64,000 nucleotides of DNA. It comes from Methylocystis parvus OBBP. Lineage in GTDB: Bacteria; Pseudomonadota; Alphaproteobacteria; Rhizobiales; Beijerinckiaceae. A model generated the notes under the pieces. That model was not told where the DNA came from and ran no database searches. It saw only the letters and a program-made list of their open reading frames with translations. The stretch lies in the NCBI RefSeq assembly GCF_027571405.1, contig NZ_CP092968.1:620001-684000 (forward strand), written 5' to 3'. Position 1 is the stretch's first letter. Each line of letters starts with the position of its first letter. Below are positions 5,127-8,718 of the stretch, one piece after another. Made by a program: the position numbers and the translations under genes.

Positions 5127-5693
5127 TCAGTTCCCGCAAAAGGCGGCGAGGCGTTCCGGCTCGGCGATATTCATCTTGCCGCTGATGATCGCCTTGACCG
5201 CGCCGGTCTCGTCTATGAGGTAATGGGTCGGCGTCACGACGCCGCCTTCCTTGGTCAGGCCATAGAATGCGACGGCCGCTTTCGCCTTGTCGGGTTCCGC
5301 GTTCACCGTGTCGGCGATGCGGTAGATCTTCCAGGGCAGGCCGTAGGTTCTGAACTTGGCGAGATCTTTCGGATAGTCTTTCCGCATGGACGAGACGAAG
5401 ACGACGTTCCAGCGATCGGGGCAGGCTTTCGCCAGAGCCTTATAGCCCGGCGCCTCGGCCAGGCAGTTGGGACACCAATGCGCCCAGATCGAGACGAAGG
5501 TCGGCCTGCCATTACCCATTGTCGCGCGCAGGTCGAAAGGCTGGCCCTTTTCGTCCACGAGATCGATCTGGCGCAGCGAGGATTTCATTTCCTCTTCGGT
5601 GGCCATCCGCTCGACCTTCATGCCCAATATCTCGGCCCTCGCGGGCGCGACGGCGAAGAGGAGCGCGAACAGGGTCTTCAGAAAGCGCGCCAT
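5127..5693 (-). CDS. TlpA-like periplasmic thioredoxin-fold protein
   Basis: A 188-residue exported protein with an N-terminal signal peptide (about residues 1-20, ending in APARA) and a thioredoxin-like domain of the TlpA/AhpC-TSA type. The redox motif WCPNC lies at residues 73-77, followed by PTHYLID with the cis-proline region. The chosen start ATG 5693 leaves a clean signal peptide; an in-frame start at 5714 adds seven residues. Proteins of this type deliver electrons or metals to periplasmic targets, including CuA assembly. Its place just downstream of an OprC/NosA-type copper receptor on the same strand suggests, by inference, a role in copper handling or metalloprotein maturation. CcdA at 41.4-42.2 kb could be its reductant. 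Confidence 0.8.
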   Translation of the reverse strand: MARFLKTLFALLFAVAPARAEILGMKVERMATEEEMKSSLRQIDLVDEKGQPFDLRATMGNGRPTFVSIWAHWCPNCLAEAPGYKALAKACPDRWNVVFVSSMRKDYPKDLAKFRTYGLPWKIYRIADTVNAEPDKAKAAVAFYGLTKEGGVVTPTHYLIDETGAVKAIISGKMNIAEPERLAAFCGN

Positions 5694-5743
5694 TTGAATT
5701 TCCTTGTCGACCATCTTGCGGCATGGCGACCTTCGGGAAGGGA

Positions 5744-5769
5744 AACCGGGCGGCGGCCGCCACCCGGTT
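5744..5769 (-). terminator. hairpin between receptor and thioredoxin genes
   Basis: AACCGGG at 5744-5750 pairs with CCCGGTT at 5763-5769 around the perfect palindrome GGCGGCCGCC, giving a very stable stem; on the minus-strand transcript it is followed by TTTCCCTT. It lies between the TonB receptor and the TlpA-like gene and could act as a terminator or as an attenuating or stabilising hairpin within one transcript. Confidence 0.4.
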
Positions 5770-5794
5770 GTTATGTCGATGAAGCCGGACGTTT

Positions 5795-8239
5795 TCAGAA
5801 CTTCACATTTGTCGCCACGTAAACGTTCCGGCCCATGCCAGGAACCGGAATGCCCCAGGCCGGCGCGCCGGCGCCGTTGCCCGACATGGTGGCGCCGTAG
5901 CCGACATAGGCGCCGCCCAGAGGCTGATAATAGAAGGCGTTGAAGATGTTTTCCACGCCGACGTCGAAGCGGACGTTACGCCATTCATAGCTGCTGCGCC
6001 AATTGAACAGCGTGTAGCCGTAGGTCTTCAGCTCGTTGCGAGCCTGCTCGATATTGGCCTTGGCGCCGACCACCTGCATTTCGACCAGATTGGTCAATCC
6101 GCCGAACTTCTGCTCGAGCGACAGCTTCGTGTTGACCGGCATGATCTGATAGAGATTGCCCCCCGTCGCGATATTCTGCCCGTTGACGTAGCTGAGGATT
6201 CCTCGGGCCGTGAAGTCGCCGAGCGGCGTGTTCCGCGCGAGAACCGCATGGCCGGAGAGATCCGCGCCGAAAAGGCGGGCGTCCTGATTGACGAACTGGA
6301 GAAAGACGAAGCCGTATGTCGTCACCAGATTGTTGCGCGTCGTCGGCGTGTTCCCGCAGACAGAGAGCGGGCAGCGCTGAACGTCGATGAAGTTGGAGAC
6401 GTAGGTGAAGTAGGGCGTGAAGCGAATTCCCCGCTGGTTGGCCTCGTCATGCCAGTCCGCCGTCGCGCTGACCGTATTCGCGACTTCCGGCTTCAGGTTG
6501 AGATTACCGACATAGAAATTTCCGTCGCCGAACCAGCCGATCATTTCCGCCGGCATGGTGGCCGGCGACCAGGAGTAGCGTTCGTAGAGATTGGGCGACC
6601 GGCTCTTGAGCGAATAGCCGAGCGAGAAGGTCAGCGCGGCGTTCGGCGTATAGGTCGCCTGCGCGGTCGCGTTCCAGTTCTGATCCGTGCGGGCGCGGTT
6701 GGAAATGTTGAACATCGTGGCCGGGAAAAGAGGCGCGGAGTCGTACATCATGACGTTGTAGCCATGCACGGGACCGGCGTTCATCCATACCGTGTCGCTG
6801 CGCAGGCCCACCAGCGTCAGCCATTGGGGGCTCCAGCGCGACTCGAGTTCGGCGAAAGCGTCGAAGCGGTCGCGCCGCCCGTCATTGATGGCGATGAAGG
6901 CGGCCGGCGCCATGCCGCCGGACGTTTTGCCGGCCGGCAGCACGAAGGGCGACGGCGGCCACCATTCATTATAGCGATATTGCTGATATTCCGCGCCCAG
7001 GCGCAGATTGTGAATATTGAACAGGGGAATGTCGGCCTTGGCCTTCACGCCGGTGTTCTGCGCCTTGGTCTCCATCGGCATGCCGGGAGCGAGGACGTTG
7101 TTGAGCGCGCCGTAGTAATATTGTTTGTCCGGGCCGAAATCCATGCCGTGACGGACGGTCTGATGGTAGAACTGCCCCTCAAGCAAGCCCCAGTCATACT
7201 GCCCGTTATAGCGGACGCTCCCCTGAACGCTGCGGTTCAGCGTCATGTCCATGCGCTGGTTCGGGAAGTTCTGATAGGGAATGTGCTGAAAGCCGACATT
7301 CACCTGAAGCTGATGGTTCTCGTGGCGGAAGGCGAGGCTGACGTCGTGATTTTGCGCCTGATAGGAGGTCGAGCCGACCTCGCTCCCTGAAAGCCATGGC
7401 GTGAACTGGTTCAGGCGCGTCAGCGGCAGCGGGACGAATGAGAAGGCGTAGCCGGCCGGCTTGAAGGCTGCGGCCGCGTGGTAATTCTCGGACCGCGAAT
7501 AGGAGCCGTTATAGGTGACGCTGAATCGGTCCGTCGCCGCCGTCGCGGAGAGATGGCCGCCATAGCCATTGCCGTTGCTGCGATAGAAGGCGCCGACTTC
7601 TCCTTTCAGCAGGACCGGCTTGCCGTCCACGTCGAAAGCGAGGGGAGACGGCTCGTTCGCCGTCTGGCCGGGAGCGGCTTTTCCGGAAGAGGCGAAGACG
7701 GGCGATGGCGGGTCGACAATGATGGCGCCGCCAATGCTGTCGCCGCCGACGCTCACGGGAACGACGCCCGAATAGACCTGAATTTTTCCGACCTGCGACG
7801 GAGAAACGTAAGAGAGCGGCGGATTCATGTGATTGGCGCAGGCCGACGCCGCCGGGATGCCGGACACGAGCACGTTCAGCCGATCGTCCGCCAGACCGTG
7901 AATGGCGGGCAGGCGCGAGACGCCGCCGGCTTCATACCAGCTCACGCCGGGCGTGTTCCGCAGGAGCTGCACGGTATCCACGGCCGCCGGCCGTTCGTCG
8001 GCGATTTGGCGCTGATCGATAATTGTCGCGCCGACCGGCTTTGCGGGCTGCGCGAAAGCCGGGATCGCCTGCGGCGGGGCGGCGGCGGGCGCTGAACGCG
8101 TGGCGGCGGTTCTGCGCGCCGCCGCGATGGTGATGTCGGGTAGGGGGGTCTGAGCCAGCACGGCATTTTCGGCGCCGGCAAGCAAGACAATAGCGATCGC
8201 GCCGGCGGATGCGCCGCGCGTCAGGGCATGACGTGACAT
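5795..8239 (-). CDS. TonB-dependent copper receptor (OprC/NosA-like)
   Basis: Outer-membrane TonB-dependent receptor of 814 residues with a signal peptide (about 1-29), a plug domain (about 60-180) and a C-terminal beta-barrel ending in aromatic Phe (YVATNVKF). The plug contains CANHM at residues 134-138, a CxxxM motif, and the barrel contains HGM at 364-366, an HxM motif. This CxxxM plus HxM pair is the copper-binding signature described for OprC of Pseudomonas aeruginosa and its NosA relatives, so copper import is the best functional call. A second cysteine pair (CPLSVCG) lies in a barrel loop. It is flanked on the same strand by a DUF2946 gene upstream and a TlpA-like thioredoxin downstream, a context seen with copper receptors. 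The substrate assignment is inferred from motifs and neighbours. Confidence 0.85.
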   Translation of the reverse strand: MSRHALTRGASAGAIAIVLLAGAENAVLAQTPLPDITIAAARRTAATRSAPAAAPPQAIPAFAQPAKPVGATIIDQRQIADERPAAVDTVQLLRNTPGVSWYEAGGVSRLPAIHGLADDRLNVLVSGIPAASACANHMNPPLSYVSPSQVGKIQVYSGVVPVSVGGDSIGGAIIVDPPSPVFASSGKAAPGQTANEPSPLAFDVDGKPVLLKGEVGAFYRSNGNGYGGHLSATAATDRFSVTYNGSYSRSENYHAAAAFKPAGYAFSFVPLPLTRLNQFTPWLSGSEVGSTSYQAQNHDVSLAFRHENHQLQVNVGFQHIPYQNFPNQRMDMTLNRSVQGSVRYNGQYDWGLLEGQFYHQTVRHGMDFGPDKQYYYGALNNVLAPGMPMETKAQNTGVKAKADIPLFNIHNLRLGAEYQQYRYNEWWPPSPFVLPAGKTSGGMAPAAFIAINDGRRDRFDAFAELESRWSPQWLTLVGLRSDTVWMNAGPVHGYNVMMYDSAPLFPATMFNISNRARTDQNWNATAQATYTPNAALTFSLGYSLKSRSPNLYERYSWSPATMPAEMIGWFGDGNFYVGNLNLKPEVANTVSATADWHDEANQRGIRFTPYFTYVSNFIDVQRCPLSVCGNTPTTRNNLVTTYGFVFLQFVNQDARLFGADLSGHAVLARNTPLGDFTARGILSYVNGQNIATGGNLYQIMPVNTKLSLEQKFGGLTNLVEMQVVGAKANIEQARNELKTYGYTLFNWRSSYEWRNVRFDVGVENIFNAFYYQPLGGAYVGYGATMSGNGAGAPAWGIPVPGMGRNVYVATNVKF

Positions 8240-8304
8240 AACAAGATTCTCCCGATCCGCCGGGGTGCGGCGGCTAAATAGCGATTGGTCGGTTCTTCAG
8301 GGGA

Positions 8305-8718
8305 TCAGGAGAAAAGCGGCGGCGCGCGCGCCGGATGCGCGGCGCGCCATCGTGCGGCGGGCGCCGTGAAGCGACGCGGGAAAACAATGGCGATCTCGCC
8401 TGCGCGAACCGGCGGCGCAAGGAAGCCGGGGCGCGCGTCGACGATCGATCCGAAGACGCAGGCGAGACAGGCCTCGCAATCATTCGTAACTCGAGTCGCG
8501 GGCGCGCGGGTTTCGCCGCCCGGCGCCGCGACGCCGGCTGCTTTGCATTTCTGGCCGAGGGCCGCGCCGCTATGCGAGCGCGCGCCCTGCGCATGAAGCG
8601 CCGGCCCCTGCGCGACAAAGAACAGCGCCATCGCCAGCGCAAGGGCGCTTCGCGCCCAACTGGCGAATCCGACGCCGCGCGTCTTCGCGCTGAAAATATG
8701 GCCCCCTCGATTCCGCAT
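8305..8718 (-). CDS. DUF2946-like small exported or membrane protein
   Basis: A 137-residue protein with an N-terminal hydrophobic segment (about 22-44), an isolated QKC, a cysteine cluster DCEACLAC in the middle and the ending ARAPPLFS. This layout (membrane anchor, Cys-rich centre, short RxPP-type tail) matches DUF2946 proteins, which often sit beside copper-responsive TonB receptors. The cysteines suggest metal binding. It lies 65 bases upstream of the receptor gene on the same strand, so it is probably the first gene of the copper cluster. Another overlapping minus-strand frame (8274-8726) exists but lacks the family features. The function of the family is not established. Confidence 0.65.
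   Translation of the reverse strand: MRNRGGHIFSAKTRGVGFASWARSALALAMALFFVAQGPALHAQGARSHSGAALGQKCKAAGVAAPGGETRAPATRVTNDCEACLACVFGSIVDARPGFLAPPVRAGEIAIVFPRRFTAPAARWRAAHPARAPPLFS

Follow-up and report, generated by a model that had tools for sequence, protein, structure and literature searches.

A 64,000-nucleotide (nt) stretch of the Methylocystis parvus OBBP genome (contig NZ_CP092968.1, positions 620,001 to 684,000; hereafter the window) carries three consecutive minus-strand open reading frames (ORFs) that we read, with reasonable though not strong confidence, as a copper-acquisition operon governed by a co-translational copper switch. They encode a leader of 137 amino acids (aa), a TonB-dependent receptor of 814 aa and a thioredoxin of 195 aa; the three genes of the original prediction are all present. 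The genome (4,529,117 bases, 3 contigs) holds three matches over the cut-off for the AMO/PmoA family, and those relatives of the three proteins that bear a name belong to Methylocystis, as expected of a methanotroph of this type; particulate methane monooxygenase makes the copper demand of methanotrophs high. The cluster is probably a copper-import gene set. What appears to be new lies at the leader-receptor junction: the leader codons that follow an Arg-Ala-Pro-Pro (RAPP) motif, together with the stop codon, are predicted to pair with the Shine-Dalgarno sequence of the receptor gene, joining a CruR-type sensor to an RNA switch of the SecM/CutF type. The features concerned are as follows.

8305-8718, minus strand: CruR-like leader ORF, DUF2946-like, 137 aa, with a hydrophobic N-terminal segment, CEACLAC at 81-87, RAPP at 131-134 and an L-F-S-stop ending
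8302-8313, minus strand: 5′ arm of the switch, UUCUCCUGAUCC, made of the final two codons of the leader, its stop codon and 3 nt (predicted fold)
8259-8271, minus strand: small GC hairpin immediately 5′ of the Shine-Dalgarno arm (predicted fold)
8247-8258, minus strand: 3′ arm of the switch, GGAUCGGGAGAA, containing the receptor Shine-Dalgarno sequence (predicted fold)
8249-8253, minus strand: receptor Shine-Dalgarno sequence GGGAG, 9 nt upstream of the ATG
8240-8304, minus strand: leader-receptor spacer of 65 nt, a stretch of C over G
5795-8239, minus strand: TonB-dependent receptor, 814 aa, with OprC-type ligands C134, M138, H364 and M366 and a set of conserved Met residues
5735-5770 (approximate coordinates), minus strand: strong GC hairpin of 11 pairs between receptor and thioredoxin
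5127-5714 (likely start 5693), minus strand: exported TlpA-like thioredoxin, 195 aa, WCPNC

In the predicted fold of the junction, UUCUCCUGAUCC pairs with GGAUCGGGAGAA, and the receptor Shine-Dalgarno sequence lies inside the second arm. An 81-nt element folded with a z-score of -3.27, with 2 of 200 shuffles equally stable. For comparison with relatives, 60 leader-receptor junctions were reduced to 38 alphaproteobacterial ones (L023 and L161 were excluded because their starts were uncertain) and these to 37 distinct junctions, from Methylocystaceae. A duplex of -12 kcal/mol or lower was found in 31 of the 37, compared with 3 in a control set of 20 ordinary junctions between genes; restricted to Methylocystaceae junctions with spacers up to 90 nt, the proportion was 30 of 34. 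The leader ended in TCC-TGA in 30 of the 37. All leaders ending in Ser (n=30) used the TCC codon and 29 of them the TGA stop, with variable neighbouring codons; the background share of TCC is 898 of 3882 Ser codons. The program RNAalifold recovered the helix unprompted. Over 22 aligned junctions, standard pairs occupied 92.1% of the cells in register versus 42.3-54.7% when slid by 1-3, and covariation (0.147 versus 0.109 after shuffling) exceeded that of 499 out of 500 shuffles. At another locus of the same genome (L127) the layout is kept with different letters, CCUUCCCG pairing with CGGGAAGG. Across the phylum (72 junctions from 110 loci), pairing was enriched at spacers below 60 nt (Kolmogorov-Smirnov p 0.001) and of 60-90 nt (p 0.0007), weaker at 90-130 nt (p 0.064) and absent beyond (p 0.12).

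The leader itself resembles CruR of Bordetella pertussis. The B. pertussis protein has CxxC at 90-93 and RAPP at 139-142, with 45 residues between the two and three after the second (PMC9426467). In the window, RAPP likewise stands three residues before the end, at 46 residues from CEAC and 43 from CLAC, close to the spacing of about 45, within one or two, that goes with the CxxC and C-terminal RAPP of CruR. The leader is the first gene and a TonB receptor follows, in the window as at sister loci; the B. pertussis set cruR-bfrG(crtA)-bp2921 is built in the same manner, with a DUF2946-type leader, the same motif spacing and a TonB receptor next (PMC9426467). The remaining gene content is as expected, since cruR operons are reported to include TonB receptors, OprC types and AhpC_TSA genes (PMC9426467). 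In 19 aligned leaders C58, C84, R131, P133 and P134 are invariant, and C87 and A132 are kept in at least 90%. When 298 genomes of the family were searched with a profile derived from the leaders, 25 had a match: 21 in the same genus and 4 in one other.

The DUF2946 gene is thus best read, from these motifs, as a CruR-type regulatory arrest leader. It had been taken for a working copper protein, and its features match an arrest leader instead; its role looks reversed relative to that earlier reading, a built-in copper sensor being the likelier function. A mature periplasmic copper protein that works in a relay with the receptor and the thioredoxin seems highly improbable. The conserved Cys residues, the N-terminal hydrophobic segment and the co-occurrence with both partners would suit such a protein, but conservation is centred on the Cys residues and the C-terminal RAPP, and the available text on CruR (PMC9426467) and CutF (PMC9973294) reports that neither was detected in cells and that the leaders act only in cis.

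In B. pertussis, stalling at RAPP keeps the receptor expressed as long as copper is absent, and expression is shut down by copper via Rho (PMC9426467); published CruR toeprints place the stall at both Pro residues of RAPP. A ribosome arrested there should reach over the 5′ arm of the helix. When 17 nt counted from the first Pro codon were masked, predicted accessibility of the Shine-Dalgarno sequence rose from 0.09 to 0.44, a value that presumes a fixed footprint and comes from related rows; with a control mask placed elsewhere it was 0.11.

From what is seen directly, namely the genes, the motifs, the conservation of the helix and its geometry, the following course of events can be proposed. 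At low copper, the RAPP end of the leader would stall the ribosome, as shown for B. pertussis CruR. The stalled ribosome would cover the final codons and the stop, leaving the receptor Shine-Dalgarno sequence free and the receptor translated. Copper bound by the CxxC of the nascent chain would relieve the stall; once the ribosome had left, the helix would form, the Shine-Dalgarno sequence would be hidden and the receptor would be off. Rho may additionally terminate transcription. Copper would be imported by the receptor in ionic form, by way of a CxxxM-HxM site like that of OprC to which methionines pass it on, as the conserved residues suggest, and the thioredoxin could, more speculatively, act on periplasmic thiols or on the cysteines of copper proteins.

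So described, the system is a variant of CruR control, to judge by sequence, with an output of the SecM/CutF type. In the cutF-cutO pair of Rhodobacter capsulatus a copper-binding nascent leader is likewise followed by a stem-loop that hides the next Shine-Dalgarno sequence, a feature that is predicted in the window; the reported sign is opposite, in that copper prolongs stalling and turns on CutO, a multicopper oxidase (PMC9973294). SecM-secA and the RAPP arrest peptides share the principle of a stall at the leader end that opens a hairpin over the next Shine-Dalgarno sequence, and they monitor protein export, not copper (PMC10987492, PMC12992588). A switch with the CutF sign, in which copper would induce the stall and turn on the downstream genes for detoxification or a copper-replete function, is very unlikely here: a hairpin across the Shine-Dalgarno sequence of the next gene is indeed the layout of CutF-CutO, but the leader ends in RAPP as CruR does and precedes a TonB receptor, which is the arrangement of copper-repressed CruR operons, and an importer induced by copper would be odd.

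More weight is due to the view that the cluster is a plain Bordetella-like CruR operon, with Rho-dependent termination acting alone and the complementarity between leader end and Shine-Dalgarno sequence incidental or of minor effect, although we regard this too as unlikely. In each of the 26 sub-windows centred from 8475 to 8150, the mRNA strand has more C than G, through the leader end and the spacer and into the receptor gene, a possible site of Rho loading, and the same excess is reported for the B. pertussis terminator (PMC9426467). Two other leaders of the genome, L124 and L126, have long spacers (136 and 158 nt) and pair weakly (-6.8 and -5.3 kcal/mol); they may use Rho. Against a plain CruR operon stand the spacer, which measures 65 nt in the window and 162 nt in B. 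pertussis, the TCC codon fixed among varying neighbours, and the pairing in register. The window leader carries a predicted anti-Shine-Dalgarno sequence in its final codons, unlike the B. pertussis operon in the part of the report consulted. The literature search, which took in few subscription papers and was made without supplements, returned no account of a CruR leader with a helix over the Shine-Dalgarno sequence; the CutF paper, from its available part, states that intergenic RNA motifs were analysed, and these may overlap with such a helix (PMC9973294).

Several results weigh against the switch as we read it. A 101-nt fold was unremarkable (z-score -1.26, 22 of 200 shuffles). The 22 aligned junctions omit four of 26 dereplicated ones (L004, L014, L142 and L169), in which the layout is absent, and two-sided changes among the 22 were confined to the small hairpin, the helix pairs having none; strong covariation is not possible there because the Shine-Dalgarno sequence is under a constraint of its own. 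Swapping arms between junctions did not separate matched (-15.8) from mismatched (-15.5) combinations, since both arms are nearly identical throughout the set. Under random synonymous recoding, no more than 6 of the 28 distinct tails reached p < 0.05 (median p 0.09; 0.102 for the window tail), and the combined Fisher value of 4e-7 is uncorrected for relatedness. Several other leaders of the genome, L124 and L126 among them, have no helix; across the phylum many junctions show no pairing, and the relatives are not independent. Finally, the DUF2946 profile (PF11162) scored 20.8 bits against the leader (E 6.9e-4), below its curated cut-off of 23.7. For this reason the leader is termed CruR-like and kept out of PF11162; its assignment as DUF2946-like stems from the motifs and the orthologous loci.

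To our knowledge, few outer-membrane copper receptors are in print. The window receptor contains the Plug and TonB barrel domains of Pfam, and the motifs that had been pointed out in it, C134-A-N-H-M138 and H364-G-M366, are both present. They were followed in an alignment of 121 rows, the receptor plus the best 120 of 4776 homologues. Of the 121 rows, 120 have C134 and M138 (one gap) and all have H364 and M366; Met residues are conserved at 330, 332, 387, 389, 443, 486, 562, 566, 700 and 785. Set against OprC at both motifs, the ligands fall on the OprC positions in 14 of 14 OprC rows used, and the plug part of the set was also matched in an alignment to a PDB structure; in the receptor model, residues 135-138 lie below a predicted local distance difference test (pLDDT) score of 50. 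OprC occupied ranks 1-28 among the 50 Foldseek matches listed, at about 17-20% identity in the structure alignments. In a tree with rows chosen by profile score, where all six groups were single and 6 of 20 OprC and 7 of 28 window-type rows were left out as near copies or for a shorter run, the receptor formed a separate long clade, sister to OprC/NosA (Shimodaira-Hasegawa-like approximate likelihood ratio test, SH-aLRT, 99.9) and outside the siderophore and cobalamin groups, a placement that the topology tests given below leave less than certain.

That the cluster is linked to copper and that its receptor resembles OprC is supported by the aligned ligands and the tree neighbour. Identification as OprC/NosA proper is not supported: the receptor scored 77.5 bits against TIGR01778, whose curated cut-off is 472.45. 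By sequence it looks like a family of its own, probably the sister of OprC. With OprC/NosA it shares CxxxM-HxM, several Met residues of the track and, by Foldseek, the closest solved fold, and it differs in its long sister branch, its place under that cut-off, its extra invariant Met residues and H137 (PMC8610252). CrtA receptors, in the part of the report available, are without conserved Cys or Met, whereas C134 and at least 10 Met residues are near-invariant in the window family; a PepSY_TM gene is reported after crtA in >75% of loci, and the window has the thioredoxin instead (PMC12914433). Nothing on the receptor family in Methylocystis came up in the literature search, within its stated range, nor does the main text of a Methylosinus copper transcriptome, as far as consulted, mention the window genes (PMC12811070).

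That the receptor takes up heme, a chelate or some other ligand, and that the operon does not serve copper, appears very improbable. Two results nonetheless point that way and tell against our interpretation: hemoglobin and heme profiles of NCBIfam outscored the copper profile, all of them under their cut-offs, and approximately unbiased (AU) tests left heme (p 0.22) and B12 (p 0.153) receptors as possible neighbours. On the other side are the four OprC ligands and many conserved Met residues, the CruR-like leader, and a PCuAC copper-chaperone family, delimited by clustering of the sequences and checked with Pfam for one member, that adjoins the receptor at 9 of 80 loci. TonB, ExbB and ExbD also occur near the receptor family elsewhere.

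The third gene matches AhpC-TSA/Redoxin in Pfam and has the active site WCPNC; against the TlpA model NF047696 it scored 31.3 bits, where the curated cut-off is 230. W80, C81, C84, C98 and H164 are present in 49 of 49 aligned rows and C193 in 48. The likely translation start is residue 8 (base 5693), since 46 of the 49 rows are gapped at residue 1 and AAGGA precedes that ATG. Joint transcription with the receptor is uncertain because the 11-pair hairpin separates the genes; this hairpin could be an attenuator or an RNA stabiliser. Of 11 Methylocystis loci of the sister type, 8 have the thioredoxin after the receptor. It was not found beside the five window-type paralogues (L126, L128, L130, L132 and L133), which disqualified it as a general partner of the receptor, and no thioredoxin was noted among the neighbour families, only partly annotated, that occur in at least 4 of the 80 named loci. 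Our guess is that it keeps the thiols of copper proteins reduced; the original suggestion of an assembly factor is no more than a possibility.

Nine CruR-like ORFs were counted in the M. parvus genome, five by Pfam and the others by motif. Downstream of such leaders lie TonB receptors, a pair of extracytoplasmic function (ECF) sigma factor and FecR, and an ExbB-ExbD set. Since the receptor has a 68% paralogue in the genome, and TonB receptors are paired with leaders at several further places, the cluster may or may not be a main entry route for copper, as originally suggested. On contigs C1 and C3 the ORFs are placed as follows.

Window: the leader described above
Near C1:12,900-17,230: three ORFs
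C1:3,779,156: one ORF
Near C1:3,020,000: two divergent ORFs
C3: one ORF
C1:2,472,562-2,472,954 (L125 4563-4955): degenerate CruR-like ORF, DUF2946 over the Pfam cut-off, CxxC lost and RAPP kept

Outside Methylocystaceae, a motif rule flagged a leader at 20 of 74 loci with sufficient upstream sequence; DUF2946 was confirmed with Pfam at both loci checked (L046 and L073), and the flagged leaders of L065 and L095 were rejected as unconvincing by eye. Upstream of OprC itself, 15 of 20 loci were flagged and 13 looked convincing. A wider proposition, to which we give slightly less than an even chance, is that methanotrophs and other proteobacteria adjust their copper uptake through nascent-chain copper sensors whose last codons are the anti-Shine-Dalgarno sequence of the importer. 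Such an arrangement would recur in short-spacer CruR operons and drive an OprC-sister family with an extended methionine path, and in this genome the nine leaders together would make up a copper regulon with co-translational control, extending to receptors, ExbB-ExbD and ECF sigma/FecR. If the switch is real, the receptor family could be named and given a testable on/off rule for its copper control; CruR-type sensors at short spacers would act by hiding the ribosome site, not through Rho alone; and the C-terminal Ser and the constancy of its TCC codon, which are hard to account for at the protein level, would have their reason in the RNA.

Other arrangements were seen around these genes. The 68% paralogue (L126 6632-11576; C1:3,774,631-3,779,575) has an STN domain and is preceded by a CruR-like leader, an ECF sigma factor and FecR, amounting to two layers of control. 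In L127 (3588-7988; C1 near 3,016,000-3,020,000) a minus-strand CruR-like leader is followed by ExbB and ExbD, then by two proteins to which Pfam assigns no family and one with BNR_2 repeats; this leader-ExbB unit and a further leader-receptor pair are divergently oriented. In L048, L088, L106, L117 and L127, which come from several lineages, proteins of BNR type, about 400 aa long, lie near the receptor family or CruR leaders. Sister loci L129, L131, L134-L140, L142 and L143 have a similar leader and thioredoxin with a receptor of another branch (about 36-42% identical to that of the window), a pattern that would fit a receptor exchange in the lineage of the window.

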